Under the pieces are notes generated by a model that saw only the letters and a program-made list of their open reading frames with translations, made no database searches and was not told the origin of the DNA. Source: an uncultured Bacteroidales bacterium (lineage in GTDB: Bacteria; Bacteroidota; Bacteroidia; Bacteroidales; FEN-979). From it: DNA of 43,044 nt. This document shows positions 7,818 through 43,044 of this stretch, one piece after another. The DNA is taken from NCBI GenBank assembly GCA_903885595.1, contig CAISJJ010000334.1:1-43044 (forward strand), given 5' to 3'. Position numbers and translations under genes: made by a program. Numbering within the stretch: the stretch's first letter is position 1; each line of letters begins with the position of its first letter.

Positions 7818-7884
7818 TTACGATTTACGATTTACGATTTACGATTTACGCGTGACGCGTGACGCATGACGCATGACGAATTAT
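7818..7884. repeat. heptamer array changing word in phase (GATTTAC to GCGTGAC to GCATGAC)
   Basis: Nine consecutive 7-bp units from 7822 to 7884: GATTTAC four times, GCGTGAC twice, GCATGAC twice, then GAATTAT. The unit changes but the 7-bp phase never slips. It lies 15-20 bp upstream of the sucB start codon (minus strand), between sucA and sucB. The same GATTTAC block occurs upstream of vorC (36575-36602) and the GCGTGAC block near dsbD (16301-16328). Confidence 0.9.
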
Positions 7885-7972
7885 CTGAACTGCAAAATTA
7901 CGACGAATGTATTAAAATTCATGATGAGTTTCTCGCTTTTCCTATCGTGGTTTAATGGGACAACAGGGGGAA

Positions 7973-10750
7973 TCACACAATCTGAAATTCATGTTCGGCG
8001 CAATGAAGCCTGCATGAACCATTGGCATATTCACACGTGCATTTTCCAAGCGCTTTTTCGACGATCAGTTTTTGTTGAATTTTATGTAGTCTTGAGGATC
8101 CCGTTGCGGGACTTCCACTGGCAGGGCGCGCCACGTGGTGTAGCGGAACCGTGGTGAAATTCAAAGAAATGTGTTTCCAGGCTCCCATGTTAACGGGTTC
8201 TTCCTGCACCCATTCCCAATGTTTGGTATCAGGGTACCTTGCGATTATTTCATTCAGCTTTTTTACCGGCAGCGGGTAAAGCTGTTCAAGCCTGATTATG
8301 GCCACATCATCCTTTTGCAGTTTCTCCTTTTCCTCAAGGATGTCGTAATAGACTTTGCCGCTGCAGAAAACGACCCTCCGGATTTTATCCGGGTCGGCAG
8401 TCACATCATCGATAACCTCCCGGAACCCTCCGAGTGTAAAGTCTTTGATTGATGAAACGCAGCGTGGGTGACGAAGCAGGCTCTTGGGGGTAAACACAAC
8501 CAGTGGTTTCCTGAATGGCCAGTAAAGCTGGCGGCGCAATACATGAAAGAAGTTGGCCGGTGTTGTACAGTTCACAACCTGCATGTTCTGGTGGCCGCAC
8601 AAAGACAGAAAACGTTCGAGCCTGGCCGAGGAATGTTCAGGTCCCTGGCCTTCATAACCGTGGGGAAGCAATAAAACGGCTCCGTTCATCACTTTCCATT
8701 TGTCTTCAGCGCTGCTGATATACTGATCGATTACGATTTGCGCACCGTTATTGAAATCGCCAAATTGCGCTTCCCATATCGTTAACCCATCTGGCGTGGC
8801 AAAAGCATAGCCATATTCAAAACCAAGCACGCCATATTCAGACAACAGAGAATTGTATATGCTGAATTTGGCCTGATCTGCCGAGATATGTTCAAGCGGA
8901 ATAAATTTTTCTTCGGAGTCCTCGACGGTCAATACTGCATGCCGGTGGCTGAAAGTGCCACGTTGACAATCCTGCCCGCTCAGGCGAACGGGATGCCCTT
9001 CTTTCAGCAAAGAACCATAAGCGATGAGTTCCCCCATGGCCCAGTCGAGTTTCTCATCCTGAAGCATGGCTTTGCGGTCATCCTGCAGCTTGACTATTTT
9101 ACGGAAAAAGGCTTGCCCTGTGGGAAGGGCCGTTAATTTGCCGCTAATCTCAAGAAAATTTGCCTCTGTTATCGCCGTCACAGGAGACGAGTCAAAATCA
9201 GCAGGGATTGCTTTGCGCAAACCCTCCCATTTGTCTCCCAGGAATGGCGTGATATCTCCTTTAATGATAGACTTGGCCGATTCAAATCCCTGGTCGAGAA
9301 TTGTGTTTATTTCGGATTTTATCTGCTGGACATTAAGTGAACCCAGGAGGTTTTCATCTTCAAGTTTTTTCAGGTAAATTTCCAGTGGATCAGGATGTTG
9401 TTCGATGATTTTGTACAAAATGGGTTGCGTAAAGCGAGGTTCATCGCTCTCATTGTGACCATATTTGCGGTACCCAAGCAGATCGATAAAAATGTCTTTA
9501 TGAAATTTTGCGCGGAATTCCATGGCAAGCTGCACCGTATAAACGACTGATTCAACATCATCGGCATTGACATGGAAGATAGGAGACTGGATGGTTTTTG
9601 CGACATCGGTACAATAAACACTGGAACGCCCATCAAGATAATTTGTCGTGAACCCGATCTGGTTATTGACTACCAGGTGAATGGTTCCTCCTGTTTTATA
9701 TCCATCAAGTTCAGCCATTTGAACCAGTTCATAGATGATTCCCTGTCCCGATATGGAGGCGTCGCCGTGAATCAGAACAGGGGCGACTTTGCTGAAATCC
9801 CCATGAAATGAAGCATCAATTTTTGCCCTGGATATGCCCTCAACTACAGGGTCGACAGTTTCGAGATGGGATGGGTTTGGCGCCAGGGTGAGGTGGACAT
9901 TTTTGTTATCGCGGGTAATGATGTCGTTGGAATATCCAAGGTGATATTTGACATCGCCCAGCAGGTCATCATCTTCATATTCTTTGCCCTCAAACTCTGA
10001 AAAGATCTGTTTAAATGGTTTGTGCATGATATTCCCAAGTACATTTAAACGGCCGCGATGGGCCATGCCAAGCACAAATTCGCTGATGCCCAGCTCGGCT
10101 CCCTTTTGAATTACTGCTTCCAGCGCTGGAATTAACGATTCAACACCTTCAAGTGAAAAACTTTTTTGACCGGGAAATTTTTTATGGATGAATTTTTCGA
10201 AAAGCACCCCATCAGCCAGTTTTCGAAGGATCAGTCTCTTTTCATCCAGACTAAACCGGGGCTCATTGCATTGAGGTTCCATTTTTTCCCTGAACCAATC
10301 CACTATTTCAGGCCGACGTATATAATGATATTCAACCCCAATTGACTGACAATATGTTTTCTGAAGATGGATAATTATATCGGAAAGTCTGGCATTCCCC
10401 AGGCCGATTTCTTTCCCAGCCTGGAATGTTTTCTGCAAATCATCAGGCGAGAGACCGAAATTTTCAATATCCAGTGTGGGAGAATACTTCCGGCGGGTCC
10501 GAACCGGGTTGGTCCGGGTAAATAAATGACCACGCGAACGATATCCATTGATAAGGTTGATTACCTTAAATTCGTTGGGAACCACGTACGCATGGCCTTG
10601 TTCCGCCTTGAAATTGGTCTGACAGAACTCAAATCCTTCGAAAAACTTCCGCCAGCTTTCATCTACGGACTCTGCATCTAGCTTATATTGCTCGTACAAC
10701 CCATCAATAACAGAGTTATCGGGTTGATTCAGATAGTTGAATTTATCCAT
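7973..10750 (-). CDS. sucA: 2-oxoglutarate dehydrogenase E1 component
   Basis: 925 residues. Thiamine-diphosphate E1 that decarboxylates 2-oxoglutarate and loads the succinyl group on E2 lipoate. Visible are the E1 N-terminal segment (NSVIDGLYEQY), AHRGRLNVL, the TPP/Mg motif GDASISGQGIIYE, VVNNQIGFTT, the RKYGHNESDEP loop and the transketolase-like C-terminal half ending in SGSPATGSSRLHKIQQ. Length fits the SucA family. Oddity: after the usual C-terminal helix the protein continues for about 23 residues rich in Cys and His (CTC, SCRLHC, EHEF), a possible metal-binding tail. First gene of the sucA-sucB-nadB run; a -7 box lies at 10775-10782. Confidence 0.95.
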   Translation of the reverse strand: MDKFNYLNQPDNSVIDGLYEQYKLDAESVDESWRKFFEGFEFCQTNFKAEQGHAYVVPNEFKVINLINGYRSRGHLFTRTNPVRTRRKYSPTLDIENFGLSPDDLQKTFQAGKEIGLGNARLSDIIIHLQKTYCQSIGVEYHYIRRPEIVDWFREKMEPQCNEPRFSLDEKRLILRKLADGVLFEKFIHKKFPGQKSFSLEGVESLIPALEAVIQKGAELGISEFVLGMAHRGRLNVLGNIMHKPFKQIFSEFEGKEYEDDDLLGDVKYHLGYSNDIITRDNKNVHLTLAPNPSHLETVDPVVEGISRAKIDASFHGDFSKVAPVLIHGDASISGQGIIYELVQMAELDGYKTGGTIHLVVNNQIGFTTNYLDGRSSVYCTDVAKTIQSPIFHVNADDVESVVYTVQLAMEFRAKFHKDIFIDLLGYRKYGHNESDEPRFTQPILYKIIEQHPDPLEIYLKKLEDENLLGSLNVQQIKSEINTILDQGFESAKSIIKGDITPFLGDKWEGLRKAIPADFDSSPVTAITEANFLEISGKLTALPTGQAFFRKIVKLQDDRKAMLQDEKLDWAMGELIAYGSLLKEGHPVRLSGQDCQRGTFSHRHAVLTVEDSEEKFIPLEHISADQAKFSIYNSLLSEYGVLGFEYGYAFATPDGLTIWEAQFGDFNNGAQIVIDQYISSAEDKWKVMNGAVLLLPHGYEGQGPEHSSARLERFLSLCGHQNMQVVNCTTPANFFHVLRRQLYWPFRKPLVVFTPKSLLRHPRCVSSIKDFTLGGFREVIDDVTADPDKIRRVVFCSGKVYYDILEEKEKLQKDDVAIIRLEQLYPLPVKKLNEIIARYPDTKHWEWVQEEPVNMGAWKHISLNFTTVPLHHVARPASGSPATGSSRLHKIQQKLIVEKALGKCTCEYANGSCRLHCAEHEFQIV

Positions 10751-10774
10751 GCTGAATGATTATCATTTCCGTGT

Positions 10775-10782
10775 CAAATATA
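10775..10782 (-). promoter_or_regulatory. Bacteroidota -7 box for sucA (TATATTTG)
   Basis: TATATTTG on the minus strand matches the Bacteroidota consensus TAnnTTTG and lies 24 bp upstream of the sucA start. No exact TTG is present at the usual -33 distance, so the promoter may be weak or activator-dependent. Confidence 0.5.
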
Positions 10783-10811
10783 CAGATAATTGAATAATTG
10801 AAGCAGGAGAA

Positions 10812-10850
10812 TAAGTTGGCAAGCTGGTAAGCTGGTAAGTTGGTAGGCTG
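10812..10850. repeat. octamer array, AAGTTGGT family
   Basis: Units AAGTTGGC, AAGCTGGT, AAGCTGGT, AAGTTGGT, AGGCTGAC in 8-bp phase, between divergent sucA and the M20 peptidase gene. Same family as 33889-33963 and 41738-41814. Confidence 0.85.
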
Positions 10851-10874
10851 ACGAAATGCTGAGCTGTTATTTCA

Positions 10875-10904
10875 TTGAAAATCCGGGGAGAATAATTATA
10901 TTTA
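10875..10904 (+). promoter_or_regulatory. promoter of the M20 peptidase gene
   Basis: TTG at 10875-10877, a 19-base spacer, and TATATTTA at 10897-10904 (one mismatch to TAnnTTTG). The start codon is 20 bp downstream, so the leader is short. Confidence 0.55.
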
Positions 10905-10923
10905 CACCACAAAAAATGACGCG

Positions 10924-12300
10924 ATGGAATATATTAAGGACTATATTAACTTACATAAGGACAGGTTTTTACAGGAATTATTCGGTTTAATCAGAATTCC
11001 ATCGATCAGTTCGGTGGTTGATCATAAAGAGGTGATGATCCATACTGCCGAATATTGGCGGAAAACCCTCAGGGAGGCCGGTTGTGAAAAAAGTGAAATT
11101 TTCCCGACTGATGGGAATCCGATCGTGTATGGTGAAAAAATGGTTGATCCTGCATTGCCTACCGTGCTGGTTTATGCACATTATGATGTTATGCCGGTTG
11201 ATCCGGTTGAATTATGGGAATCGCAGCCCTTCAAACCCGAAGTCCGCGACGGTAAAATATATGCCCGTGGAGCCGATGATGATAAAGGCCAGTCGTTTAT
11301 GCATGCAAAGGCCTTTGAACTGATGGTTCGCACAAATACGCTTCCCTGCAATGTGAAATTTATGATTGAAGGAGAAGAAGAGATTGGTTCCATGAACATC
11401 GGCCCATTTTGCAAGGAATACAAAGAGATGTTGAAATCAGACATCATTCTTGTCTCCGATACCAGTATGCTCGGATTGCAGAACCCTTCCATTACAGTTG
11501 GTTTGCGGGGACTTGCCTATATGCAGGTTGAGCTAACCGGTCCCAACATCGATTTGCATTCCGGCATTTTTGGCGGCGCTGTTGCCAATCCAATCAACGC
11601 ACTGGCAAAACTGATTGCTTCACTCACTGATGATAATGGCCGTGTCACCATTCCGGGGTTTTACGATGATGTGGTTGAAATTTCCAGAGACGAACGTGAT
11701 GAAATGGCCAAGGCGCCTTTTAATGAAACGAAGTATATGGAAAACCTGGGAGTAGCTGAACTTTACGGAGAAGCAGGCTATTCTACCAAAGAGCGCACCG
11801 GAATCCGCCCCACGCTGGATGTGAATGGAATCTGGGGCGGATATACGGCCGAAGGAACAAAAACAGTATTGCCATCCAAGGCCTATGCCAAAATTTCCAT
11901 GCGTCTTGTTCCCAACCAGGATTATAATAAGATTGGCGAGCTTTTTGAGAAGTATTTCACCTCAATTGTTCCCAAAACCATGAAGGTAAAAGTACAGACT
12001 TTGCATGGTGGACAGGCATACGTTTCTCCTATTGATACGATTGGCTACAAAGCCGCCAGCAAAGCAATTGAATCGGTTCTGGGAAAAAAGCCGATCCCTG
12101 TCCGAAGCGGCGGTAGTATTCCGATCATTCCGCAATTTGAGGAAATACTTGGTGTTAAGACAATCTTGCTGGGATTTGGCCTGGAATCGGATGCCTGTCA
12201 CTCGCCGAATGAGAATTATCCACTTGAAAATTTCTTTAAAGGAATCGAGACGATCCCCTATTTCTATAAGTACTTTACTGAACTTTGGAAGGAGAAATGA
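10924..12300 (+). CDS. M20 family dipeptidase
   Basis: 458 residues, no signal peptide, so cytoplasmic. A two-zinc M20 metallopeptidase: the first zinc ligand is in VYAHYDVMPVD, the bridging Asp in ARGADDDKGQ, the catalytic glutamate pair in EGEEEIGS, another ligand in VSDTSML and a distal His in ACHSPNENYP. The inserted lid/dimerisation domain contains LTGPNIDLHSGIFGG, typical of CNDP-like dipeptidases. Such enzymes release amino acids from dipeptides, consistent with an amino-acid-fermenting lifestyle. Transcribed alone with its own promoter; the stop codon is followed at once by a heptamer array. Confidence 0.9.
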   Translation: MEYIKDYINLHKDRFLQELFGLIRIPSISSVVDHKEVMIHTAEYWRKTLREAGCEKSEIFPTDGNPIVYGEKMVDPALPTVLVYAHYDVMPVDPVELWESQPFKPEVRDGKIYARGADDDKGQSFMHAKAFELMVRTNTLPCNVKFMIEGEEEIGSMNIGPFCKEYKEMLKSDIILVSDTSMLGLQNPSITVGLRGLAYMQVELTGPNIDLHSGIFGGAVANPINALAKLIASLTDDNGRVTIPGFYDDVVEISRDERDEMAKAPFNETKYMENLGVAELYGEAGYSTKERTGIRPTLDVNGIWGGYTAEGTKTVLPSKAYAKISMRLVPNQDYNKIGELFEKYFTSIVPKTMKVKVQTLHGGQAYVSPIDTIGYKAASKAIESVLGKKPIPVRSGGSIPIIPQFEEILGVKTILLGFGLESDACHSPNENYPLENFFKGIETIPYFYKYFTELWKEK

Positions 12301-12335
12301 GTGCAAAATGCAAAATGCAAACTTCATAATTTCAA
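12301..12335. repeat. heptamer array, AAAATGC family (short)
   Basis: Directly after the M20 stop codon: GTGC, then AAAATGC twice, AAACTTC, ATAATTT, CAACTTT in 7-bp phase with decaying similarity. Same family as 23861-23937. Confidence 0.65.
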
Positions 12336-14162: not shown

Positions 14163-16262
14163 TTAATGTTGTTTTTTGAAATTGTCCAGTCCTGTGTTCA
14201 GAAATTTTGCAAAGGCATCAATATCAAGATTGTAAGCACGTGGAGCGGTAAGCAGATTTCCGGAAGTATCTAATAGAACGTAGTAAGGTTGGGAGTTGAC
14301 ATTGAACCGGGCGATCTGGAGATCAGCGAAAATTTTCCCTATGGTTTTTTTGACTTTATTATCATATTTTGATGTGATCCATTCCTGTTGCGGCAATTCG
14401 GTTTTATCATCAACGTAGAGAGCCGTTACTATATAATTTTCCCGCAGGATCTTCAATACATTTGGATCGGACCAGACATTGGCCTCCATTTCGCGGCAAT
14501 TTACACATCCGTGGCCGGTGAAATCAATGAAGACCGGTTTATTTTGTTGTTTCGCGCACGCCAATGCCTGCTTAAAGTCGAAATATCCTTCCAACCCGTG
14601 GGGGAGTTTTAAAAAGTCGGCATATTTGGGTTTTTCACAAAGTGCAGATGGAGCCTGGTTCACACCTCCTCCTGCATTGACTGAATTCACCTCCGTTTTT
14701 ACGATTGCATTGATATCAAAATCCTGATAGGTTGCAGGTGGCAGATATCCGGATAATGCTTTAAGCGGTGCACCCCACATGCCGGGAATCATATAAACGA
14801 CAAAGGAAAAGACTACGATTGCAAGGATGATCCTGGGAACGCTGATAAAGGGGAGTTCAGAATCGTGGTTGAATTTAAGTTTCCCGATGAGGTACATTCC
14901 CATCAGGAAGAAGATGACAATCCAAAAAGCAAGATAAACCTCGCGGTCGAGTATATGCCAGTGGTAGGTTTGGTCGGCGATACTCAGGAATTTCAACCCC
15001 AGCGCAAGTTCAAGGAATCCAAGGACCACCTTCACCGAGTTCAGCCATCCGCCTGATTTTGGAAGTCCTGAAAGTAAAGAAGGAAAGAATGCGAATAAAC
15101 CAAAGGGCAAGGCAAAGGCAAGTGAAAAGCCAAGCATCCCGATAATGGGCATGAGGATGTCTCCCCCGGCTGCTTTAACAAGGATGGCTCCGACGATCGG
15201 GCCTGTGCACGAAAATGAAACAAGTACCAACGTAAAGGCCATGAAAAAGGCTCCCCCGTAACCGCCCTTATCGGCCTGTTTATCGGCTTTATTTACAATC
15301 CAGCTTGGCAGTGTGATCTCAAACATTCCCAGGAAGGAGGCGGCAAAAACCATGAAGATCAGGAAGAAGAATACATTGGGAATCCAATGGGTGCTGATGA
15401 AATTGTTAAAATTTGCACCAAGTGTAACGGCAACCACCACGCCAAGTACCACATAAATTATGATGATCGAAAGACCATAAACTATGGCTTCCATCCTGGC
15501 TTTCCGTTTGCTGGTAGTGTCGTGCATAAAAAAAGTGACCGTCATCGGTATCATTGGGAACACACAAGGAGTAACAATTGCAAACAATCCTGCTAAAAAA
15601 GATATTATGAAAAACCAGAGCAGCGATTGATCGGCGGCTTTATCGGCATCTGTTTTACCAAATTTGGTTTGTTCAATCCTTTTTGCAGTTGAATCGGCGC
15701 TGGCTTTGGCCGAAGCTGCAATTTTTAATGAATCTTTGACGGTTGCAGTTGAAGTGACTGTATCTGATTTTGCAATGGGAGCGACAGCGCCCGGGTTCCC
15801 CTTGACGCTGAAAACAAATTCCACATCGTTGGGCGGTAAACACTGTTTATCGTCACAGCACATGAAGTTCAGAACGCCCTTCACCGTAAAATTTTTCTGA
15901 CTTAAAACCTTGATTTTTTGTTTGAAGACTGCCTTGTCTGCAAAAAACTTAAGGATCATATCGAAATTTGGGTCATTCTCCTCGATGGCTTTTGGCTCCT
16001 GTACTTTCCCAATCAGATCATAATGCAAACTTTTTGTAAAAGTGAAAGTGGTTGGGATGGGTGCCCCATTGGGCCCTCCCTGCGGTACATCCTGCGAATA
16101 AACATGCCATCCCGGACCTGCTTTGGCAATAAGCAGCAGGGTGGCTTCACCGGGATTGGTTTGTTCTACTTTGAAGGTCCATTTGACAGGATCAAGTATT
16201 TGCGTGAACGAAAACAGTGGCAGCAGTATCATGGCCAGCAGGCCGATCAGAATATTTTTCAT
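14163..16262 (-). CDS. dsbD: thiol:disulfide interchange protein DsbD
   Basis: About 699 residues from the chosen start (MKNILIGLL), which begins a clean signal peptide; an upstream ATG at 16286 would add eight polar residues and is less likely. Order: periplasmic alpha domain with the cysteine pair in NFMCCDDKQCLPP, an eight-span membrane domain with its two redox cysteines in IVTPCVFP and FSCTGPIVG, and a C-terminal thioredoxin domain with GCVNC. It carries reductant from cytoplasmic thioredoxin through the membrane to periplasmic thiol proteins. A proline/alanine/lysine-rich linker separates alpha and membrane domains. Lies between tilS and the T9SS cargo gene. Confidence 0.95.
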   Translation of the reverse strand: MKNILIGLLAMILLPLFSFTQILDPVKWTFKVEQTNPGEATLLLIAKAGPGWHVYSQDVPQGGPNGAPIPTTFTFTKSLHYDLIGKVQEPKAIEENDPNFDMILKFFADKAVFKQKIKVLSQKNFTVKGVLNFMCCDDKQCLPPNDVEFVFSVKGNPGAVAPIAKSDTVTSTATVKDSLKIAASAKASADSTAKRIEQTKFGKTDADKAADQSLLWFFIISFLAGLFAIVTPCVFPMIPMTVTFFMHDTTSKRKARMEAIVYGLSIIIIYVVLGVVVAVTLGANFNNFISTHWIPNVFFFLIFMVFAASFLGMFEITLPSWIVNKADKQADKGGYGGAFFMAFTLVLVSFSCTGPIVGAILVKAAGGDILMPIIGMLGFSLAFALPFGLFAFFPSLLSGLPKSGGWLNSVKVVLGFLELALGLKFLSIADQTYHWHILDREVYLAFWIVIFFLMGMYLIGKLKFNHDSELPFISVPRIILAIVVFSFVVYMIPGMWGAPLKALSGYLPPATYQDFDINAIVKTEVNSVNAGGGVNQAPSALCEKPKYADFLKLPHGLEGYFDFKQALACAKQQNKPVFIDFTGHGCVNCREMEANVWSDPNVLKILRENYIVTALYVDDKTELPQQEWITSKYDNKVKKTIGKIFADLQIARFNVNSQPYYVLLDTSGNLLTAPRAYNLDIDAFAKFLNTGLDNFKKQH

Positions 16263-16300
16263 CCGGAAATAATTTGAAGTTGGCAAAGTTAGGGAAAAAA

Positions 16301-16329
16301 CGTGACACGTGACGCGTGACGCGTGACAA
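16301..16329. repeat. heptamer array, GCGTGAC family
   Basis: ACGTGAC twice, GCGTGAC twice, then AAGAAAA in 7-bp phase, between tilS and dsbD and about 40 bp upstream of the dsbD start. Same words as 7850-7863. Confidence 0.8.
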
Positions 16330-16367: not shown

Positions 16368-17708
16368 TTAACTTTCATCTCTCACAATGCTCAATATCTC
16401 CTGTGTTGTTGACGTAACCCTGTACCGGTGATCAATCCGATGACCGATGATCCAAACAATGTCTTTTCCGGAGCACAGAACCCTTGTTTGTTCTTTTTCT
16501 TTTATCGGGATTTTCTGATCAATAAAAAAGTCACTTAATTTCTTCTTTTTTTTCATCCCAAGGGGGAAAAAGGCATCACCGTGCTGCCATTTTCTGACAG
16601 ACAGCGGAAATTGTAATTTCCCGAAATCCAGGGAGGCGATCATACCAGTAGCCGGGATCACATACTGATCTACTTTCTTTACCCGTGTAAAAACAAGTGG
16701 AACAGGAGTTGTCAGGCTTTTTTTTCTGGTAAAATAGTTGATTATGACAGCCCGTTCCACCGATTTTATTTGTATTTTATTGATAACCAATTTTCCCCGA
16801 TCTTTCACAAGCCGGTATGACGGAGAAAAAAATACCCTTTTGCCTTCTTTTAATAAGCATGAAAGAATGTTCTGAACCTGGGATTCGTTAAACCCAAATG
16901 GAGACAACGCCTCCCATGCGAAGGATTCGAGCGGGGATTCCAACAGAAGATTATCGACCATGATCACACTATCTCCATCTTCAACCATCGTGAGTCGTTT
17001 TCTTCCCTCTTCCAGTGCACGGATTCCAATTTGCTCAAAATCATAAATTTTCCTTATGGTATGTGAGAGTCCCCGCGTGAATTCAGGATTGATGTCTCCT
17101 ATTACAGGGAGTAGTTCATGCCTGATTTTGTTGCGCAGATACTTCGTTTCATTGTTTGAACGATCTTCACGATAAGGAACGTGATATTTTATTGCATACT
17201 GCTCAATTTCCTTTCTGGATGTAAATAGCATTGGCCTTACTATATGACCTTTTTTCACCGGGATGCCGTGCAGACCCGCAATACCGGTACCACGGATCAG
17301 GTTTATCAGGAAGGTTTCAGCCTGGTCGTCAAGGTGATGTGCTGTAGCGATATAAGTAAATCCAAATTCAGTCCTGACCTGTTCAAACCATTCGTATCGA
17401 ATTTCTCTGGCTGCCATCTGGATTGAAAACCCATGTTCTGAAGCATAATTGGTAGTGCTGAATTTTTTTATATAAAAGGGAACATGTAATTTGTTTGCAA
17501 GATCCTTCACGAATATGGAATCGTCATCACTTTCCTGACCCCGTAAACCGAAGTTACAATGAGCCAGTGCAAAAACCAGTTTTGCCCGGTGAAACAGATC
17601 AACCATCACCGATGAATCGATCCCACCACTAACGGCAAGCAAAATGGGTTCGTTATAGAAAAAAAGTTTTTTTGTTTCTATGAAGGAGAGAAAATCGTTG
17701 GTGTTCAT
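16368..17708 (-). CDS. tilS: tRNA(Ile)-lysidine synthetase
   Basis: 446 residues. The N-terminal N-type ATP pyrophosphatase domain has the PP-loop SGGIDS (27-32), and the family's catalytic region ATAHHLDDQAETFLINLIRGTG. The C-terminal TilS domain carries the PLGMKKKKKLSDFFIDQKIP motif. It changes the wobble C of tRNA-Ile(CAU) to lysidine so that AUA is read as Ile; the gene is normally essential. First gene of the tilS-dsbD-VCBS run. A near-consensus -7 box (TAATTTCG, minus strand, 17712-17719) lies right at the start. Confidence 0.95.
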   Translation of the reverse strand: MNTNDFLSFIETKKLFFYNEPILLAVSGGIDSSVMVDLFHRAKLVFALAHCNFGLRGQESDDDSIFVKDLANKLHVPFYIKKFSTTNYASEHGFSIQMAAREIRYEWFEQVRTEFGFTYIATAHHLDDQAETFLINLIRGTGIAGLHGIPVKKGHIVRPMLFTSRKEIEQYAIKYHVPYREDRSNNETKYLRNKIRHELLPVIGDINPEFTRGLSHTIRKIYDFEQIGIRALEEGRKRLTMVEDGDSVIMVDNLLLESPLESFAWEALSPFGFNESQVQNILSCLLKEGKRVFFSPSYRLVKDRGKLVINKIQIKSVERAVIINYFTRKKSLTTPVPLVFTRVKKVDQYVIPATGMIASLDFGKLQFPLSVRKWQHGDAFFPLGMKKKKKLSDFFIDQKIPIKEKEQTRVLCSGKDIVWIIGHRIDHRYRVTSTTQEILSIVRDES

Positions 17709-23787: not shown

Positions 23788-23860
23788 GGCTTAAATTTCG
23801 GGCAATTTAGTAAAATTTTACAATGCCTGGGAAGCGTATTGTTATGAAAAGAGAAAAAGT

Positions 23861-23937
23861 AAAATGCAAAATGCAAAATGCAAAGTGCAAAAGGCAAAGC
23901 GAATAATGTGAAGTGTAAAATGTAAAGGAAAAAATAC
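23861..23937. repeat. heptamer array, AAAATGC family
   Basis: Eleven units in unbroken 7-bp phase: AAAATGC three times, AAAGTGC, AAAAGGC, AAAGCGA, ATAATGT, GAAGTGT, AAAATGT, AAAGGAA, AAAATAC. Lies between the lpxH start and the end of the truncated lipoprotein gene. Confidence 0.85.
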
Positions 23938-24774: not shown

Positions 24775-24810
24775 ATTTCGCTATTTCGCTACCTCGCCAC
24801 CTCACTACTT
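24775..24810. repeat. octamer array, ATTTCGCT family, at Nudix gene stop
   Basis: ATTTCGCT twice, ACCTCGCC, ACCTCACT, ACTTCTCT in 8-bp phase. The Nudix stop codon (24805-24807) is inside the last unit. Same family as 31066-31140 and 36612-36663. Confidence 0.8.
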
Positions 24811-27122: not shown

Positions 27123-27310
27123 TTAAATTTTGAACTTTGAATTTTGAGTCTGCTCCGAAAAGTCCGATCAACTGGATTCTGAGCGGAGTCATAGGATGCA
27201 AATACCTGATAATAAGTACACTTCGACTTCGCTCAGTGTCCGGTTTCCGTTAAATTGATTTTCGGAGTAGGTTCAATTTTGAGTTTTGAGATTTAAGTTT
27301 TGAGTTAAAA
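27123..27310. repeat. heptamer array AATTTTG/AGTTTTG interrupted by an inverted-repeat element
   Basis: Left part: AATTTTG, AACTTTG, AATTTTG before 27146. Right part from 27275: AATTTTG, AGTTTTG, AGATTTA, AGTTTTG, AGTTAAA. Both sides keep 7-bp phase and the 133-bp element lies between them, as if inserted into, or carrying, the array. The right part reaches the stop codon of the fused E1 gene. Confidence 0.7.
27144..27276 (+). mobile_element. MITE-like element, copy 1 (133 bp)
   Basis: Ends TTGAGTCTGCTCCGAAAA (27144-27161) and TTTTCGGAGTAGGTTCAA (27259-27276) are inverted repeats with 15 of 18 matches. Inside are AGTCCGATCAACTGGATTCTG and CACTTCGACTTCGCTCAGTG, also partly palindromic. No coding capacity. 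Copy 2 in opposite orientation is at 29790-29924 and a decayed copy 3 at about 30709-30842. Confidence 0.8.
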
Positions 27311-29770: not shown

Positions 29771-29945
29771 CATAATTAAAAATTAAAAATTGAGTCTGTT
29801 CCGAAAAGGCATTTTCAAACAATTAATGACACTGAGCGATTTCGAAGTGTACTTAATTTCAGCCTGTTGTATCCTTCGGCTCCACTCAGGATCCAATTGA
29901 TCGGACTTTTCGGAGTGGACTCAAAATTAAAAATTACGAATTACG
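29771..29945. repeat. AT-rich heptamer array around element copy 2
   Basis: ATTAAAA units precede the element (29775-29790) and AAATTAA, AAATTAC, GAATTAC follow it (29924-29945), again in 7-bp phase. So both intact elements sit inside heptamer arrays. Confidence 0.6.
29790..29924 (-). mobile_element. MITE-like element, copy 2 (135 bp), inverted
   Basis: Ends TTGAGTCTGTTCCGAAAA (29790-29807) and TTTTCGGAGTGGACTCAA (29907-29924). Its reverse complement aligns along its whole length with copy 1, sharing AGTCCGATCAA.TGGAT.CTGAG and GTACACTTCGA..TCGCTCAGTGTC. No ORF. Together copies 1 and 2 bracket the fused E1 gene in inverted orientation. Confidence 0.8.
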
Positions 29946-29958
29946 GCTATCCTCATTT

Positions 29959-30074
29959 GTCCCGTGTCCCGCGTCCCGCGTCTCGCATCCCGTGTCCCGC
30001 GTCCCGTGTCCCGTGTCCCGCGTCCCGCGTCTCGCATCCCGCGTCCCGCATTATTTGTTATTTGTCATTGGTCA
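29959..30074. repeat. heptamer array GCGTCCC/GTGTCCC/GCATCCC, ~16 units
   Basis: From 29963 the units GTGTCCC, GCGTCCC, GCGTCTC, GCATCCC alternate for 12 copies in perfect 7-bp phase, with the three-unit series GCGTCCC-GCGTCTC-GCATCCC occurring twice. It then passes in phase into GCATTAT, TTGTTAT, TTGTCAT, TGGTCAT (to 30074), ending 5 bp before the rubrerythrin stop codon. The longest GC-rich array in the window. Confidence 0.9.
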
Positions 30075-30677: not shown

Positions 30678-30706
30678 CAAAGTTAATCGAAAATTCTGAA
30701 TTTCAA
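30678..30706 (-). promoter_or_regulatory. promoter of rubrerythrin
   Basis: Minus strand TTG (30706-30704), 18-base spacer, TAACTTTG (30685-30678), about 20 bp before the start codon. Spacing is the same as at korAB. The -33 box lies right at the edge of the decayed element copy 3. Confidence 0.6.
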
Positions 30707-30708
30707 TT

Positions 30709-30842
30709 TTAAGCCCACTCCAAAAACTTCTATTTATGATTTGTTTGAAACATGATAAATCGTAAGTCGCTGAATGTCAAAATACATAAACTTCGCGTAG
30801 TGTCCGGTTTTCTTTGAAAATGCCGTTGGTGAGTTGACGCAA
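30709..30842. mobile_element. decayed copy 3 of the MITE-like element
   Basis: Recognisable parts: GCCCACTCCAAAAAC at the left end, ACTTCGCGTAGTGTCCGG in the middle (compare copies 1 and 2), and TTTGAAAATGCC near the right end as in the reverse complement of copy 2. Terminal repeats are largely lost. Located between rubrerythrin and rubredoxin genes. Confidence 0.55.
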
Positions 30843-31051: not shown

Positions 31052-31065
31052 ATTAGAAAAAATTA

Positions 31066-31140
31066 GGTAGCGAAATAGCGAAATAGCGAGGTAGCGAAAT
31101 AGCGAGGTAGCGAGGTAGCGAAATAGCGAGGTAGCGAAAT
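31066..31140. repeat. octamer array, GGTAGCGA/AATAGCGA, 9 units
   Basis: Nine 8-bp units differ only in the first two bases, which change together: GG, AA, AA, GG, AA, GG, GG, AA, GG. It runs up to the stop codon of the glutathione peroxidase gene (TAA at 31142-31140) and ends 15 bp before the rubredoxin start. No single-base intermediates (GA or AG) occur. Confidence 0.9.
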
Positions 31141-33845: not shown

Positions 33846-33888
33846 GAAGGATATGCTGGATTTACAAATGTAATGAATAAATGGGAAA

Positions 33889-33963
33889 TTGGTAAGTTGG
33901 CAAGTCGGCAAGTTGGTAAGCTGGTAAGTTGGTAAGTTGGTAAGCTGGGAAGCTGGTAAGTTG
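33889..33963. repeat. octamer array, AAGTTGGT family, ~9 units
   Basis: AAGTTGGC, AAGTCGGC, AAGTTGGT, AAGCTGGT, AAGTTGGT twice, AAGCTGGG, AAGCTGGT in 8-bp phase, between the LETM1-like start and the YqaE stop. Confidence 0.9.
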
Positions 33964-33990: not shown

Positions 33991-34146
33991 CTAGTTGCGC
34001 CTCATATTGAATACAATGGCAGCAATTACCCCTGGGATCCAGCCGCAGCAGGTTAGGATAAAAACCAGTAAAATAGCTCCGCATCCCCGGTCGAGAACGG
34101 CCAGTGGGGGGAAAATGATGCAGATGATTGCCCGGAGGATACCCAT
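33991..34146 (-). CDS. YqaE/Pmp3 family membrane proteolipid, 51 aa
   Basis: 51 residues with two membrane spans: an N-terminal MGILRAIICIIFPPLAVLD and a second span ILLVFILTCCGWIPGVIAAIVF. The motifs IICIIFPPLAV and LTCCGWIPGVIAA are the UPF0057/Pmp3 signature. Members are small plasma-membrane proteins linked with salt, cold and membrane-potential stress in yeast, plants and bacteria. Too short for many gene callers. The start codon directly follows the heptamer array on the upstream side. Probably a single-gene unit, with the cation transporter gene upstream on the same strand. Confidence 0.9.
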   Translation of the reverse strand: MGILRAIICIIFPPLAVLDRGCGAILLVFILTCCGWIPGVIAAIVFNMRRN

Positions 34147-34147
34147 T

Positions 34148-34196
34148 ATGAATTACGAATTACGAATGACAAGTGACAAGTGACAAGTGACAAAGA
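34148..34196. repeat. heptamer array GAATTAC to GAATGAC to AAGTGAC
   Basis: Units GAATTAC, GAATTAC, GAATGAC, AAGTGAC three times, AAAGATA in unbroken 7-bp phase, starting 4 bp upstream of the YqaE start codon (34146, minus strand). Shows the word conversion directly. Confidence 0.85.
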
Positions 34197-36016: not shown

Positions 36017-36571
36017 TTAGTTCACCAGGTGGATTGCCTGCAATAACTCCTTTCCGAGCTCAATAGCTTTTTCATTTTCGGGGATGAGTGCATGGTGCCG
36101 GGCGGGCAGAGATTTCTCCAGTCCTTTGTGAATGTACTCCGGTGCGACCAATGGCTTTAGCTTAAGGAAACCTCCCAGGACAATCATGTTGAAAATTTTG
36201 GAAAGTCCGCGCTTTCCAGCCTCATCGGCGGCTTCGATCGAGTATATATTGATATCCCTGCGATCGGGGAAACGGGTGATCCCGTTTGGATCGTAAATCA
36301 GCAGTCCTCCGGGTTTGACAGTTTTTTCGAATTTATCCATCGATTGCTGGTTCAGAATGATGGCTGTATCATAAGAGTTCAGGATGGGGGAGCTGATGCG
36401 TTCATCGCTGATGATCACCGTTACATTGGCCGTTCCACCGCGCATTTCGGGACCGTATGAAGGCATCCAGCTGACTTCTTTATTCTGCATAACACCTGAA
36501 TAGGCGAGGATCTTTCCCATGGATAGAACTCCTTGTCCGCCAAAGCCTGCGATGATAATTTCTTCAGTCAT
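36017..36571 (-). CDS. vorC: 2-oxoacid:ferredoxin oxidoreductase, gamma subunit
   Basis: 184 residues. Gamma domain with IIIAGFGGQGVLSMGKILAYSG at the N-terminus and PSYGPEMRGGTANVTVIISD, typical of KorC/VorC/IorB-like gamma subunits. It completes a four-subunit oxidoreductase with the ferredoxin, alpha and beta subunits upstream. It is the last gene of vorDBAC. Between its start codon and the vorA stop are two adjacent arrays (36575-36607, heptamers; 36612-36663, octamers). Substrate is branched-chain 2-oxoacids or 2-oxoglutarate; sequence alone does not decide. Confidence 0.88.
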   Translation of the reverse strand: MTEEIIIAGFGGQGVLSMGKILAYSGVMQNKEVSWMPSYGPEMRGGTANVTVIISDERISSPILNSYDTAIILNQQSMDKFEKTVKPGGLLIYDPNGITRFPDRRDINIYSIEAADEAGKRGLSKIFNMIVLGGFLKLKPLVAPEYIHKGLEKSLPARHHALIPENEKAIELGKELLQAIHLVN

Positions 36572-36574
36572 TTT

Positions 36575-36609
36575 GATTTACGATTTACGATTTACGATTT
36601 ACGATTTTG
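36575..36609. repeat. heptamer array GATTTAC, 4-5 units, before vorC
   Basis: GATTTAC four times and GATTTTG in 7-bp phase, 4 bp from the vorC start codon. Read on the minus strand it is in the same orientation and similar distance to a start codon as the block before sucB. Confidence 0.9.
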
Positions 36610-36611
36610 CC

Positions 36612-36663
36612 GTTTCGCTACTTTTACTTTCGCTACTTCGCTATCTCGCTATCTCGCTACTTC
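36612..36663. repeat. octamer array, xxTCGCTA family, at the vorA stop
   Basis: TTTCGCTA, CTTTTACT, TTCGCTA, CTTCGCTA, TCTCGCTA twice, CTTCAATT; mostly 8-bp phase with one 7-bp unit. The vorA stop codon (CTA at 36649-36651) and its last codons (VAR) are inside the array. Confidence 0.85.
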
Positions 36664-37446
36664 AATTAATTTTCCATCCACCTTGATATCTCCCAGCTGA
36701 TAGAACGGGAACATATTTTCTTCCATCCATTTGTTGGATTGTACCGGCGTCATTTTCCAGCCTGAATTGCAATTGGAAACGATTTCGATGAATGATAACC
36801 CTTTGTTTTCCTTTTGGAGCTCAAAGGCTTTACGAATGGCTTTTTTTGTTTTCCGCACGTTATTTGGTGTGTGTACGGACTGGCGGGTAACATAATATAC
36901 GCCAGGCAGGTGGGCAACCAGTTCGGTCATCTTCAGCGGGTGGCCCATAGTGGGTACATCGCGGCCGTAAGGGGATGTGGATGAGCGCATTCCCGGCAAG
37001 GTTGTCGGGGCCATCTGGCCACCGGTCATACCGTAAATCCCGTTATTGATGAAAATGATTGTGATGTTTTCGCCACGGTTGCAGGCATGAATGGTTTCGG
37101 CCGTGCCAATGGCAGCAAGATCCCCGTCGCCCTGGTATGTAAATACGAAGTGGTTTGGCCACATGCGTTTTATGGCAGTTGCCAGGGCAGGCGCCCGCCC
37201 GTGTGCAGCGCCAAGCATATCGATGTTAAGGAAATCATACGCCAGCACAGAGCAGCCAACAGGAGATACGCCGATGGTTTTCTCGGTAATATCCATCTCT
37301 TCGATCACCTCCATCAGCATGCGGTGAGCGGTGCCATGACCGCAACCGGGGCAATAACTCAGCGGCCGGTCGACCATCAGGTCGGTCTTTTTATAGACAA
37401 TATTTTCCGGCTTCCGGATTTCGGGTTTTGCGAATAGTTCTTCCAT
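36649..37446 (-). CDS. vorA: 2-oxoacid:ferredoxin oxidoreductase, beta (TPP) subunit
   Basis: 265 residues. TPP subunit: SYCPGCGHGTAHRML, GVSPVGCSVLAYDFLNID, AAHGRAPALATAIKR, TPP/Mg motif YQGDGDLAAIGTAETIHACNRGE and FINNGIYGMTGGQMAPTT. Oxidative decarboxylation with VorB; electrons pass to the VorD ferredoxin. Its final residues VAR and the stop codon are encoded by the octamer array, so the array defines the C-terminus. Two bases separate its start and the vorB stop codon, so translation is likely coupled. Confidence 0.9.
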   Translation of the reverse strand: MEELFAKPEIRKPENIVYKKTDLMVDRPLSYCPGCGHGTAHRMLMEVIEEMDITEKTIGVSPVGCSVLAYDFLNIDMLGAAHGRAPALATAIKRMWPNHFVFTYQGDGDLAAIGTAETIHACNRGENITIIFINNGIYGMTGGQMAPTTLPGMRSSTSPYGRDVPTMGHPLKMTELVAHLPGVYYVTRQSVHTPNNVRKTKKAIRKAFELQKENKGLSFIEIVSNCNSGWKMTPVQSNKWMEENMFPFYQLGDIKVDGKLIEVAR

Positions 37447-37448
37447 AG

Positions 37449-38531: not shown

Positions 38532-38551
38532 GGAGTATATTTTTATAATTT

Positions 38552-39889: not shown

Positions 39890-41203
39890 TTAAGAATGTT
39901 GCTCCCTGAATTTAACCAGCCGGGCTTCCAGGATTGGCAGCTGATCACGCTTGACAAGTGAGACGCAGGCCCGTATTCCTTCAAGTCTGTCGCTACCGGT
40001 GATACTCAGGGCAATGGCGCTGATACCATAGTAAATCAGCTCTTCGAGTAACTCTTCCCCCGTGAATCCCGGGTATGAGAAGGTAAAGTAAAAACCATCG
40101 GCAATGGGTTCATCTTCGTCCTTATCGTAAACGATGTTAAATCCATTGTCAGTAAACATTTTTTTCATAATCATGGCCTTTGCCCCGTATTCTTTTACCA
40201 CCTCGACAAAATCGAAGGTGCCGTCGTTTACGGCTTTCAGCATGGCAGCCAGACCATATTGGCTCGAATGGGAGGTGCCGGCGCTCAAAGCATAAACGGT
40301 GCCATAAATAAGGGCTCGCCCAAGAATATCGGTAGAATAACACCAGAGCAGGTTGGCCGACTGTGTGTTGAACAATTTATTTGATACGATCATCAGGCCG
40401 ATACGCTGACCTGCATAACTGAAAATCTTGGAACTGGAGATCAGGAGAACATAGTTGTCGGTATATTTTGCCACAGTGGGCTGGTAAGGTGGTTGCCCGG
40501 GTTTGGAATAATCTTTCCTGAAATCCATTGCGAAATATGCCAGGTCTTCAATAATGATCACATTGTATTTATTCGCCAGCTCGCCAATGATGCTCAGCTC
40601 TTTATGGGTAAAGCAAATCCAGGATGGATTATTTGGATTTGAATAAAGCACAGAATGGATGTTCCCTTTTGACAGGTATGATTCCAGTTTATCACGCAGT
40701 TTGTCTCCACGATAATTATAAACATCAAATGATTCAAAATTTAATCCAAGCACCCTGTGTTGCTGATGGTGAACAGGGAAGCCAGGATCGATGAACAGCG
40801 TTGTATCTTTTTGCTTGTCGATTTTCGAAAAGGTGAGGAATGCGGCAAATCCACCCTGCATGCTGCCAACTGTCGGAACACAGTTTGCTTCATCGACATC
40901 GATATCGAGAAAAAGTTTAACAAACCGCGAAGCCTCCTTTTTAAGTACCGGTGATCCTTCAATATCGGGATAAATTGAAGCAACCCCCCGTTGCAGCGCT
41001 TCAATTTCAGCCTCGACGCCAATGGAGGTTGGGGCCAGGCCCGGAACACCCATCTCCATACGTACAAATTTTTCGCCGGTCTCCTTTTCAATACCGTTGA
41101 TTAAACGCTTGATTTCACGGATGGATGCTTTTCCAATGCTTCGGATTTTACTTTCATGGAAATGCCGCTGAACAACTTCATAGTTGATGGGGGTATCTTT
41201 CAT
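39890..41203 (-). CDS. pyridoxal phosphate-dependent aminotransferase (class I/II)
   Basis: 437 residues. Fold-type I aminotransferase: YSNPNNPSWICF (substrate/cofactor loop), IIIEDLAYFAMDF, and the PLP lysine Lys259 in LLISSSKIFSYAGQRIGLM. N-terminal SIGKASIREI and MGVPGL are typical of the large Bacteroidota aminotransferase group annotated without a defined amino acid. Candidate for the transamination of aromatic or branched-chain amino acids that would feed VorDBAC or the arylacetate route next to it; this is inference from neighbourhood. Confidence 0.85.
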   Translation of the reverse strand: MKDTPINYEVVQRHFHESKIRSIGKASIREIKRLINGIEKETGEKFVRMEMGVPGLAPTSIGVEAEIEALQRGVASIYPDIEGSPVLKKEASRFVKLFLDIDVDEANCVPTVGSMQGGFAAFLTFSKIDKQKDTTLFIDPGFPVHHQQHRVLGLNFESFDVYNYRGDKLRDKLESYLSKGNIHSVLYSNPNNPSWICFTHKELSIIGELANKYNVIIIEDLAYFAMDFRKDYSKPGQPPYQPTVAKYTDNYVLLISSSKIFSYAGQRIGLMIVSNKLFNTQSANLLWCYSTDILGRALIYGTVYALSAGTSHSSQYGLAAMLKAVNDGTFDFVEVVKEYGAKAMIMKKMFTDNGFNIVYDKDEDEPIADGFYFTFSYPGFTGEELLEELIYYGISAIALSITGSDRLEGIRACVSLVKRDQLPILEARLVKFREQHS

Positions 41204-41412
41204 AACTGACGTGTGAATGGCGTATTGGTGAACTGAATAACAGGCAACAAAATTGAGTAATTATTTGCAATTATCCAACTGTTTTATAGGGGATAACATA
41301 ATTTTTTCAGGGATGACCATTCTGCAAAAACCAATAATGGCGTTGAACACACACGCATGTGTAAATACCAGGCATAATTTCTAGGAGAATAATACGAAAA
41401 AAGCTGACGCGA

Positions 41413-42471
41413 TCAGAATGGGGTTTCGCTTCCAATGTAACAGGTAATTCCGAGCGAGCCGAATTGATCCGCTATTTTTTGAAGATCAGTTTTCCCTGGG
41501 ATTTTAAAATCAGTCGTGTAATATTTTTTATCGAGAAGGCTGTATTTTTCCCGTCCAAGGTGATGAAGGGGAAGGAGGTTGATTTCATTTCGCCCGATGG
41601 AATGAATAAACCGGGCAGTTTCTTGAATGTTTTCAGCATGATCATTAAACCCGGGAATGACCGGTAAGCGGAAAACCAGGCGTCCGGAAAATTCGCTTGC
41701 AATCCGGCGGGCATTTTCGAGGATATGGGGAATGGGAAAGTTGGCAAGTTGGTAAGTTGGTAAGTTGGCAAGTTGGTAAGTTGGTAAGTTGGTAAGTTGG
41801 TAAGTTTGGGAGTTTGCAGGGTGATTAGCGGGTGAAGGTGTTTTTTGATCGATGGCAGATCCATTGATTATTTTCAGGTCGAAAAATATCCAGTCGATGT
41901 AAGGCAATGATCTTTCATAATTCGCCCAGGGTATGTTGCCACACGTTTCAACGGCAGTATGAATATAGGCGTCATAGCAGCGTTTCAGAAAATCGTGTGC
42001 AAATTCAGGCTGGGCGAAAGGTTCGCCACCCGTGAGGGTAATTCCGCCATCTTTGCCCCAATAGGGACGATCGCGATTGATACGCAGGTATAATTCTTCA
42101 ACTGTAATTTCATATCCACCGATATTCAGCGCCCCCGAACAGCAGGCCCTTGCACACGCATATGAATTGCACTTTGCACATATCGTCCGGTTGAATGAAA
42201 GCAGTGTTGTGTCGCCGGTTTTTGAAATGGTGATGGCATTATGAGGACAAGCATTCACACATAACCCATCGAAAGTGCATTTAGTTTCGCGGTACAGTGG
42301 TTCGGGAAAGAAAGAGATCCCTTCGGGATTGGAGCACCATGCGCATTCAAGGGAACATCCCTTAAAAAAGACAAGGGTTCGGCAGCCGGGGCCGTCGTGC
42401 ACCGAGAATCCCTGGATATCGAAAATATGACCATGGGTTAATTCTGCCGGTACCATTGAAAGTCGGCACAT
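41413..42471 (-). CDS. hpdA: glycyl radical enzyme activating protein (HpdA-like)
   Basis: 352 residues; a start at 42456 (MVPAELTHG) is equally possible. Radical SAM activase: CX3CX2C in FKGCSLECAWCSN (Cys39, 43, 46), then a two-cluster ferredoxin domain (Cys65, 71, 75 and 98, 101, 106, 110), GGITLTGGEP, and FFDLK near 196-200. The added ferredoxin domain is typical of HpdA/CutD-type activases. It generates the glycyl radical on its partner decarboxylase. Overlaps hpdC by 34 bp. Oddity: residues ~219-244 are encoded by an octamer array, replacing the usual short segment before ILENARRI; the frame is intact. Compared with PFL-type activases the loop HxxTGxxN is lost. Confidence 0.88.
   Translation of the reverse strand: MCRLSMVPAELTHGHIFDIQGFSVHDGPGCRTLVFFKGCSLECAWCSNPEGISFFPEPLYRETKCTFDGLCVNACPHNAITISKTGDTTLLSFNRTICAKCNSYACARACCSGALNIGGYEITVEELYLRINRDRPYWGKDGGITLTGGEPFAQPEFAHDFLKRCYDAYIHTAVETCGNIPWANYERSLPYIDWIFFDLKIINGSAIDQKTPSPANHPANSQTYQLTNLPTYQLANLPTYQLANFPIPHILENARRIASEFSGRLVFRLPVIPGFNDHAENIQETARFIHSIGRNEINLLPLHHLGREKYSLLDKKYYTTDFKIPGKTDLQKIADQFGSLGITCYIGSETPF
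41738..41814. repeat. octamer array, AAGTTGGT family, in frame inside hpdA
   Basis: AAGTTGGC, AAGTTGGT twice, AAGTTGGC, AAGTTGGT four times, then AAGTTTGG in 8-bp phase. Because 8 is not a multiple of 3, the protein repeats every eight residues (TYQLANLP-type). Its intergenic relatives are at 10812 and 33889. Confidence 0.9.
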
Positions 42472-42695
42472 TTACTGGCGATCATGTCGGGATAAGCCAG
42501 GGAGGTTCCCATACATTGGCCGAGGAAATCCTTTTCACTCTTATAATTTGAACAGAATTTGCATTTAGCAATTTTTTCTGCCTGACCACAAAAGGGATCT
42601 TCGGGGCCAATTTTTGACTTATTGATTTTGCACATCCCTCTGAAAACATCAACAGGGAGGTAAAATTTACAATCTTTACATGAATACTCATCCAT
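42438..42695 (-). CDS. hpdC: glycyl radical decarboxylase small subunit (HpdC-like)
   Basis: 85 residues with eight Cys: Cys6, 9, 22, 36 and Cys45, 48, 61, 76, suiting two [4Fe-4S] clusters in two similar halves ([12 protein letters not shown] and [12 protein letters not shown]). Length and pattern match the gamma subunit of 4-hydroxyphenylacetate decarboxylase, e.g. of Clostridioides difficile and Tannerella. In known hpdBCA operons the order is large subunit, small subunit, activase; here C and A are in that order, and the large subunit would be beyond 43044. The p-cresol-forming role is inferred; the related phenylacetate and indoleacetate decarboxylases lack this subunit, which favours the hydroxyphenylacetate type. 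Confidence 0.85.
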
Positions 42696-42749
42696 ATGTT
42701 AATTCTATTTTGTACTTCGCATTTTTATTCCGCACCTACGGAGCGGAAA

Positions 42750-42800
42750 CTCAACATTGTTTCCACCAGGCTACCAAAATCAGGCTCCTATGGAGCCGGA
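42750..42800. repeat. two hairpin repeats CCGC-CTACGGA-GCGG / GGCTCCTATGGAGCC
   Basis: CCGCACCTACGGAGCGG and GGCTCC-TAT-GGAGCC, related inverted repeats in the hpdC upstream region. No T-run follows in either direction. Confidence 0.5.
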
Positions 42801-42805
42801 TGGTT

Positions 42806-43044
42806 CAATCCATCCATCCATCCATCCATCCATCCGTTAATCCATCCATCCGTCAATCCGTCAATCAATTCGTCAATCCATCAATCAATCCATCAATCAA
42901 TCCATCAATCAATCAATCCGTCAATCAATCAATCCGTCAATCAATCCATCAATCAATCCATCAATCCGTCAATCAATCATTCAATCAATCCGTCAATCAA
43001 TCATTCAATCAATCCGTCAATCAATCAATACACCAATGCATCCA
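42806..43044. repeat. tetranucleotide array of CAAT/CCAT/CCGT units, at least 239 bp
   Basis: From 42806 to the right edge almost every fourth base is T, with units CAAT, CCAT, CCGT, rarely TCAT or TTAA. It begins as pure CCAT (six units), then alternates CAAT and CCAT/CCGT in two- and three-unit blocks. It is noncoding: the minus-strand reading hits TGA in all frames. It lies between hpdC and the expected hpdB and is longer than the other arrays; true length is unknown since it reaches the edge. Confidence 0.9.

Follow-up and report, generated by a model that had tools for sequence, protein, structure and literature searches.

The window analysed here, the whole 43,044-nucleotide stretch of contig CAISJJ010000334.1 (C334) from an uncultured Bacteroidales bacterium, carries many short tandem arrays in which the unit length stays at 7 or 8 bp while the unit sequence, here called the word, shifts along the array. 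We interpreted them as dispersed short minisatellites under concerted evolution, a reading to which we give a probability of about 0.58. A slot (a spacer, a protein linker or a protein loop) could retain an array across species. Replication slippage or unequal exchange within the array would add, remove or block-duplicate whole units, and point mutations would thereby spread along it, so that the word drifts and the period stays at 7 or 8. Short tracts, comprising an array and adjoining non-periodic sequence, would be copied between slots, giving each genome a limited vocabulary. Slippage would be the biochemical step and gene conversion or template switching the copying step; the arrays would be neutral, tolerated at unconstrained sequence.

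An earlier sequence-only reading had described constant unit length with shifting words as a single behaviour across the arrays, with several word families together, and this description held. Tandem Repeats Finder (TRF) placed an array at each of the 17 positions it named, or within about 20 bases. Some were short, such as those at 27129-27147 and 29774-29791 with 2.6-2.7 copies. The word series were as described: GATTTAC, GCGTGAC, GCATGAC, GAATTAT at 7822-7884; GAATTAC, GAATGAC, AAGTGAC, read at 34145-34193; the AAAATGC series, starting at 23854; and GTGTCCC/GCGTCCC/GCATCCC at 29958-30049. All the listed arrays were found, but three proved to be intragenic, at 7472 and 7533 (SucB linker) and 41738 (a radical SAM gene).

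The window belongs to a draft genome (G000) of 6.02 Mb in 547 contigs. The main survey covered the window and 55 further contigs, which were taken by their number regardless of what they contain and total 429 kb (32.7 kb of it N). Exact arrays of at least three copies numbered 0, 0, 21, 11 and 0 at periods 5, 6, 7, 8 and 9 in the 55 contigs, and 0 throughout in a Markov control. Periods 10, 14 and 16 gave 1, 2 and 1. Inside the window there were five exact arrays at period 7 and one at period 8.

Loose arrays were counted with mismatches tolerated and N runs removed, again with Markov sequence as the control. Period 7 gave 47 (40 in the contigs and 7 in the window) and period 8 gave 28 (20 + 8). 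The other periods were sparse: 3 + 2 at period 4, none at 5 or 6, 4 + 0 at 9, 1 + 0 at 10, 2 + 0 at 11, 2 + 1 at 12, none at 13, 2 + 0 at 14 and 4 + 0 at 16. The control gave one array at period 7 and none at every other period. Periods 5, 6 and 9 were therefore not of equal density with 7 and 8 in G000 (0, 0 and 4 vs 47 and 28), and the claimed restriction to 7 and 8 stood in this genome. As in the heptanucleotide type of prokaryotic long simple sequence repeats (LSSRs), tandem units of 5-11 nt occurred beyond chance, and 7 nt was the commonest.

The words recurred at distant loci beyond expectation, also as claimed. Among 47 period-7 arrays there were 31 same-word pairs (null mean 1.9, maximum 10, in 500 intergenic draws), and among 29 period-8 arrays there were 28 (null mean 0.23, maximum 4, in as many draws).

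Word patterns were searched in 61 stretches (560 kb, about 9% of the G000 genome), five of which had been preselected for array content. Many heptamers fit RNNTKAC and many octamers ARYNGGTR, two superfamily patterns devised post hoc from data already seen. Three tandem copies of RNNTKAC gave 79 overlapping matches vs 3 for the reversed pattern, and three copies of ARYNGGTR gave 17 vs 0. Three copies of GATTTAC occurred 42 times in the G000 genome and 0 to 297 times per genome across 18 relatives in the genus. Within the family, 23/43 genomes had this triplet, vs 0/43 for its control.

Four copies of GATTTAC were matched in at least 117 stretches, with many phyla in the named genomes among the 80 matches listed. 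The hosts among these listed matches (L257-L336) included Chloroflexi, Armatimonadetes, Akkermansia, Desulfococcaceae, Patescibacteria and others, and several Akkermansia genomes and one Armatimonadetes genome had more than one such array each.

A universal or horizontally carried word was considered and rejected. Three copies of GTCAYTT were found in 12/395 Bacteroidota genomes vs 7/395 for the reversed control. Since this was hardly above the reversal, a universal word is unlikely, and from one lineage to another the choice of word seems close to arbitrary. Nor did the data support a set order for the TGAC and GTAAATC families, which preceded one another 7 to 7, with strands agreeing 14 to 2. 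TAGCGARR preceded GTAAATC at 4/4 places, of which two are orthologous and one was fetched by that same query.

Five orthologous slots were compared, with 8 to 18 species per slot. Each sequence was tested against 300 mononucleotide shuffles, the threshold being the 95th percentile of the maximum over periods 4 to 12. In the SucB linker (12 of 14 loci, sucB not being found in those of G008 and G004; G005, G006, G007, G010 and G014 were excluded), the first half had period 7 in 9/12 species, with differing words that include ATCAAAA, AAATCCC, AAAATCG, AAATGCA and AAAGTGC. The second half had period 8 in 4/12 species, again with differing words, among them CACCCGCT, CCACTTGC and ACCAACTT. Two period-9 signals in this test coincided with the conserved domain start.

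The radical SAM loop was compared in 14 of 19 genomes (G001, G003, G005, G011 and G013 gave weak or partial matches only). Period 8 was significant in 5/14 species, with four word types, and in five further species the loop was long and had no significant period. It was short and ordinary in G006, G007, G009 and G010, the four species least like G000 in sucA. The array in the loop is thus probably a derived insertion.

In the rubrerythrin-E1 spacer, period 7 was found in 6/8 and period 8 in 3/8 species (eight loci out of 15; the gene end was not matched in G018 and G005, and G001, G006, G007, G009 and G010 were omitted). Outside the test, AAGTGAC units were present in G018 and absent from G005, and no plain array was read in G006, G009 and G010. 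Among 18 species, the VorA-gamma spacer had period 7 in 11 and period 8 in three, and in six it lacked any significant period. The sucA-sucB spacer had period 7 in 4/10 (10 of 18 loci; elsewhere another gene or sequence followed sucA, or sucB was unrecognised), and was short and empty in G002, G016, G012 and G017. Periods 4, 5, 10 and 12 turned up in five spacer cases. The period was largely constant at orthologous slots while the words differed, which is the behaviour of the sequence-only reading on an evolutionary time scale.

Changes within arrays were seen in two close relatives, G006 and G010, which are 97.1% identical in sucA. Their aligned blocks (97.7 kb) hold seven indels of at least 7 bp. 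Every one falls within spacer sequence that is array-like or composite, and three measure 7, 14 and 28 bp. One orthologous spacer held a different composite in each genome. In the window, a 43-nt block was duplicated at 98% identity in the array at 29958-30049, and TRF reported a 24-bp higher-order unit at 31065-31137. The block duplication, the higher-order unit and the whole-unit indels are the traces that slippage or unequal exchange, by one unit or several, would leave.

Purely local slippage is an alternative. The arrays would then have arisen independently from chance seeds, with 7 favoured by the polymerase; the specificity for periods 7 and 8 and the whole-unit indels of G006/G010 are as expected from it, and a polymerase-contact hypothesis for heptanucleotide repeats is reported in the consulted parts of PMC4679880 and PMC4692102. 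It does not account, however, for identical words at many loci, well above chance, or for the non-periodic sequence that some arrays have in common beside them. We consider local slippage alone unlikely.

The shared non-periodic sequence was sought in 273 spacers of G000 (the five selected contigs included) after masking of the arrays. There were 87 local matches, vs 5, 2 and 4 in controls. They involved 72 spacers, of which 30 were array-bearing, vs 70/273 overall (P=3.6e-4). One composite in G000, which combines units of AAGTGAC and of GATTTAC with a T run and units of GTCACG, was matched in full or in part at 31 or more places. In 15 copies that were read, the flanks were mostly different, two copies having a common, longer left flank, and no common or fixed ends were found. 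Another composite had at least 34 matches in G006 and at least 25 in G010, mostly partial; its middle was missing at an orthologous G010 site, which carries a different composite. These match counts are lower bounds, because only 40 candidates were scored per genome. The TAGCGARR + GTAAATC composite of the window also occurs elsewhere in G000 and in G011 and G003, with other linkers. The dispersal of array-bearing composites suggests short-tract ectopic copying between loci. The sequence-only reading had not decided on a generator; the data lean towards slippage or unequal exchange within arrays together with such copying between loci.

The same dispersal could reflect a mobile element as array carrier, such as a repetitive extragenic palindromic (REP) sequence mobilized by its associated transposase (RAYT), or a miniature inverted-repeat transposable element (MITE). 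REP-like and MITE-like repeats do adjoin some arrays, and a short TTTTGAG tract lies about 110 bases downstream of one of the three Y1_Tnp (Y1 transposase) genes matched in G000. The remaining flanks of these genes, on the other hand, are hairpin-type or longer repeats; Y1_Tnp was not found in 5/19 genomes of the genus, including the array-bearing G010 and G015; and the 15 composite copies lack common ends apart from the shared left flank in two. The hairpin unit and fixed ends of a REP/RAYT system were seen neither in these copies nor in eight folded pieces. The DNA folding of these pieces was not notably better than that of shuffles (z -1.36 to +2.12), leaving secondary structure unsupported. 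A mobile carrier is improbable on these grounds.

Templated synthesis of 7- or 8-nt repeats, by a reverse transcriptase or an enzyme resembling telomerase, would also give a fixed step with a changing word, and such a pattern may be called formally telomere-like. RVT_1, however, was not found in the array-bearing G010, G011 and G013 (drafts of 95-97% completeness), and the arrays lie mid-gene and mid-spacer. We regard this explanation as extremely improbable. Transition-only variation, a sign of wobble or RNA templating, was looked for separately and rejected: column changes comprised 44 transitions and 42 transversions at period 7, and 54 and 23 at period 8.

The position of the arrays relative to genes, called by a simple open reading frame (ORF) rule, was then considered. 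Between predicted genes lay 58 of the 76 arrays (37 + 21), and 18 were coding; spacers make up about 12% of bases. The location was mainly noncoding, as in the heptanucleotide type of prokaryotic LSSRs. Density per kb was 1.07 in co-directional, 1.12 in divergent and 1.37 in convergent spacers, and the four word families in co-directional spacers were in sense orientation 11 times and antisense 7 times. In the 55 contigs and the window, the arrays had no preference for 5' regions or for the sense strand. The similar densities and the 11:7 orientation suggested that they are unlike a 5' regulatory element. As assembly breakpoints the arrays were rejected, being at 4/98 contig ends vs 2.3 expected.

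The words might serve as sites for an RNA- or DNA-binding regulator, by analogy with what has been suggested for the TAACTGA repeats of Beggiatoaceae. Some arrays do adjoin start codons, and one spacer is almost identical in two otherwise diverged species. The densities and orientations above speak against such sites, as do the different words carried by orthologous slots and the intraprotein position of some arrays. A function for the words is unsupported, and a role as regulator sites appears quite improbable.

The arrays and host genes in the window are as follows, with the strand given where one was assigned.

6550..7803, minus strand: SucB gene (TIGR01347), holding two in-frame arrays.
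7472..7499, minus strand: octamer array, sense word CACCCGCT/CACCAGTT, within the SucB linker.
7533..7553, minus strand: heptamer array, sense word ATCAAAA, within the SucB linker.
7818..7884: heptamer array GATTTAC, GCGTGAC, GCATGAC, GAATTAT, in the sucA-sucB spacer.
10812..10850: octamer array AAGYTGGY, lying between divergent genes on the upstream side of sucA.
12302..12321: short heptamer array TGCAAAA, directly past a dipeptidase ORF.
16300..16328: heptamer array ACGTGAC/GCGTGAC, in the gap that separates ORF 14163-16286 from the TilS-like ORF 16368-17708.
23854..23927: heptamer series AAAATGC/AAAGTGC with weaker variants, in a spacer.
24775..24808: octamer array ATTTCGCT/ACCTCGCT, overlapping ORFs of both strands.
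27129..27147: short heptamer array, close to one end of a dispersed (MITE-like) repeat copy.
27277..27306: heptamer array TTTTGAG, past the opposite end of the repeat copy at 27126-27240.
29774..29791: short heptamer array AATTAAA, at a terminus of the second dispersed (MITE-like) repeat copy.
29958..30049: 13-unit heptamer array GTGTCCC/GCGTCCC/GCATCCC, 3' of the rubrerythrin gene.
31065..31140: octamer array TAGCGARR, immediately 3' of the glutathione peroxidase gene; the ORF beyond it is rubredoxin-like by eye.
33882..33963: octamer array AAGYTGGY.
34145..34193: heptamer array GAATTAC, GAATGAC, AAGTGAC.
36575..36607: heptamer array GATTTAC, 3 bp off the start codon of ORF 36017-36571 (termed gamma here, POR domain).
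36629..36663: octamer array TTCGCTAY, at the far end of the VorA-gamma spacer, by ORF 36649-37446 (termed VorA here, TPP enzyme domain).
41413..42471, minus strand: radical SAM gene, holding one in-frame array; from its domains, probably a glycyl-radical-enzyme activase.
41738..41816, minus strand: octamer array, sense word ACCAACTT, in frame within the radical SAM gene.
42805..43042: TCAATC-type array of 238 bp whose periods of 8, 12 and 24 are nested, located at the contig end; it may have stopped the assembly.

Several observations weighed against dispersed minisatellites under concerted evolution. In stretches from 20 relatives, of 7 to 75 kb apiece, period 7 was foremost (24 arrays), and period 9 equalled period 8 in frequency (9 and 8 arrays). 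Several of these stretches, including the 60 kb from the closest relative G008, had no arrays. The 7-and-8 rule is thus partly peculiar to G000; the strength of period 8 differs within the genus. The preference for 7 and 8 over 5 or 6 has no explanation in the scheme. Between the aligned blocks of G006 and G010 there were larger differences, at least three of them non-array, indicating that array change accounts for only part of spacer change. The period-9 counts and these non-array differences slightly reduced our confidence.

Gain and loss of units was observed only between these two close species. Neighbouring units were more alike than shuffled ones in just 5 of 28 longer arrays (P<0.05); block duplication could account for so little clustering, though it still weakens the case. 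Just 21 of the 87 matches between masked spacers adjoined arrays, and linkers differed between composite copies, which leaves room for convergent growth.

The last point against it came from the VorA-gamma spacer (36572-36648 in the window; locus L168 in G007), which is 97.4% identical in G000 and G007. The flanking genes are 80.9% (VorA) and 81.0% (gamma) identical in the same pair, and the spacers of five other aligned relatives are 40.5 to 81% identical. The chance of 97.4% identity given 81% was about 1e-5, uncorrected for the comparisons made. Plain drift does not predict this; spacer-only transfer, conversion from a shared vocabulary and strong constraint are possible causes. A process working in fixed 7- or 8-nt steps in the genus, by which a slot keeps its period and words are exchanged between slots of the same period, would also account for the 97%-identical spacer beside 81%-identical genes. 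If true, micro-arrays throughout the genome would evolve in concert, inside species and perhaps across them, through a copying activity that is dedicated or biased to an unusual degree. We consider it rather unlikely.

Heptamers are the commonest longer simple sequence repeats in most bacterial genomes, according to the consulted portions of PMC4679880 and PMC4692102. As far as the sources cited here extend, prokaryotic LSSRs of 5-11 nt, which they report after Mrazek (2007), share with the present arrays the dominance of heptamers, a mostly extragenic location and a patchy distribution by lineage. Unlike LSSRs, the octamers here are more than half as common as the heptamers, several word families occur per genome, and at orthologous slots the period is mostly kept and the word changed.

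The GGGNATC / GGGGAYT heptamer repeats of Xanthomonas and Nostoc are described in the same portions as intergenic and heterogeneous (Rehm 2015, PMC4692102). In two related Xanthomonas genomes most of the repeats have the same neighbouring genes, and they vary in length and, extensively, in sequence (PMC4692102). The arrays of G000 resemble them in being intergenic heterogeneous heptamers with same-gene positions in related genomes and with variation. Unlike them, the present arrays are no sparser between divergent genes, and no GGGANTN or GGGGAYT arrays were found in 560 kb of G000. The likeness drawn by the sequence-only reading to the short tandemly repeated repetitive (STRR) sequences of heterocystous cyanobacteria is one of style; of related word types, the Nostoc GGGGAYT type does not form arrays in those 560 kb.

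TAACTGA repeats are reported, in the part of the source used, from marine Beggiatoaceae, some cyanobacteria and five Bacteroidetes (MacGregor 2015, PMC4679880). Like the present arrays, they are intergenic, gene-proximal heptamers of patchy distribution with some Bacteroidetes hosts. They consist of one word, mainly just upstream of start codons, whereas here there are many words with no clear orientation. The forward orientation upstream of starts seen in Beggiatoaceae was absent (11 sense, 7 antisense), convergent spacers were equally dense, and TAACTGA direct repeats numbered 0 in the same 560 kb.

Satellites derived from heptamers or octamers, GATAGRA in Chloroflexus and AGGGGAGT in Mesorhizobium, are described by Subirana and Messeguer (2019, PMC6749651), who suggest, in the part consulted, a possible transposition mechanism for them. 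In these too, one short word is dispersed within a genome; unlike here, those examples have one main family per species. Single-word families are described, within the consulted parts of PMC4679880, PMC4692102, PMC6749651 and PMC4060949, from Xanthomonas, Nostoc, Beggiatoaceae, a few Bacteroidetes, Chloroflexus and Mesorhizobium.

The arrays of G000 are an unusually rich form of a bacterial repeat type already known. A literature search, thin on subscription journals, gave no report of a slot-conserved period with word turnover. The cross-species comparison of slots adds to the known repeat descriptions: orthologous slots mostly inherit the unit length while the unit sequence turns over, and drifting arrays lie in frame inside a conserved enzyme and a protein linker. 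Such slots allow two questions to be tested, namely the 7-nt preference of bacterial minisatellites and the genome-wide spread of one word.

Some other repeats were noted in the course of the analysis. The dispersed MITE-like repeat occupies 27126-27240 and 29783-29942 in the window, with a weak match at 30695-30818. The copy at 29783-29931 has 26-bp inverted ends enclosing 97 bp, and over 115 nt the repeat aligns, inverted, with another copy at 81% identity. Short heptamer arrays lie at or near its ends. A REP-like sequence of roughly 76 nt has many copies in G006 and G010 (L213, L218 and others), adjoining arrays where read. A 190-nt spacer sequence is shared at 96% identity by two G000 contigs (L033:14475-14677 and L054:10197-10572).

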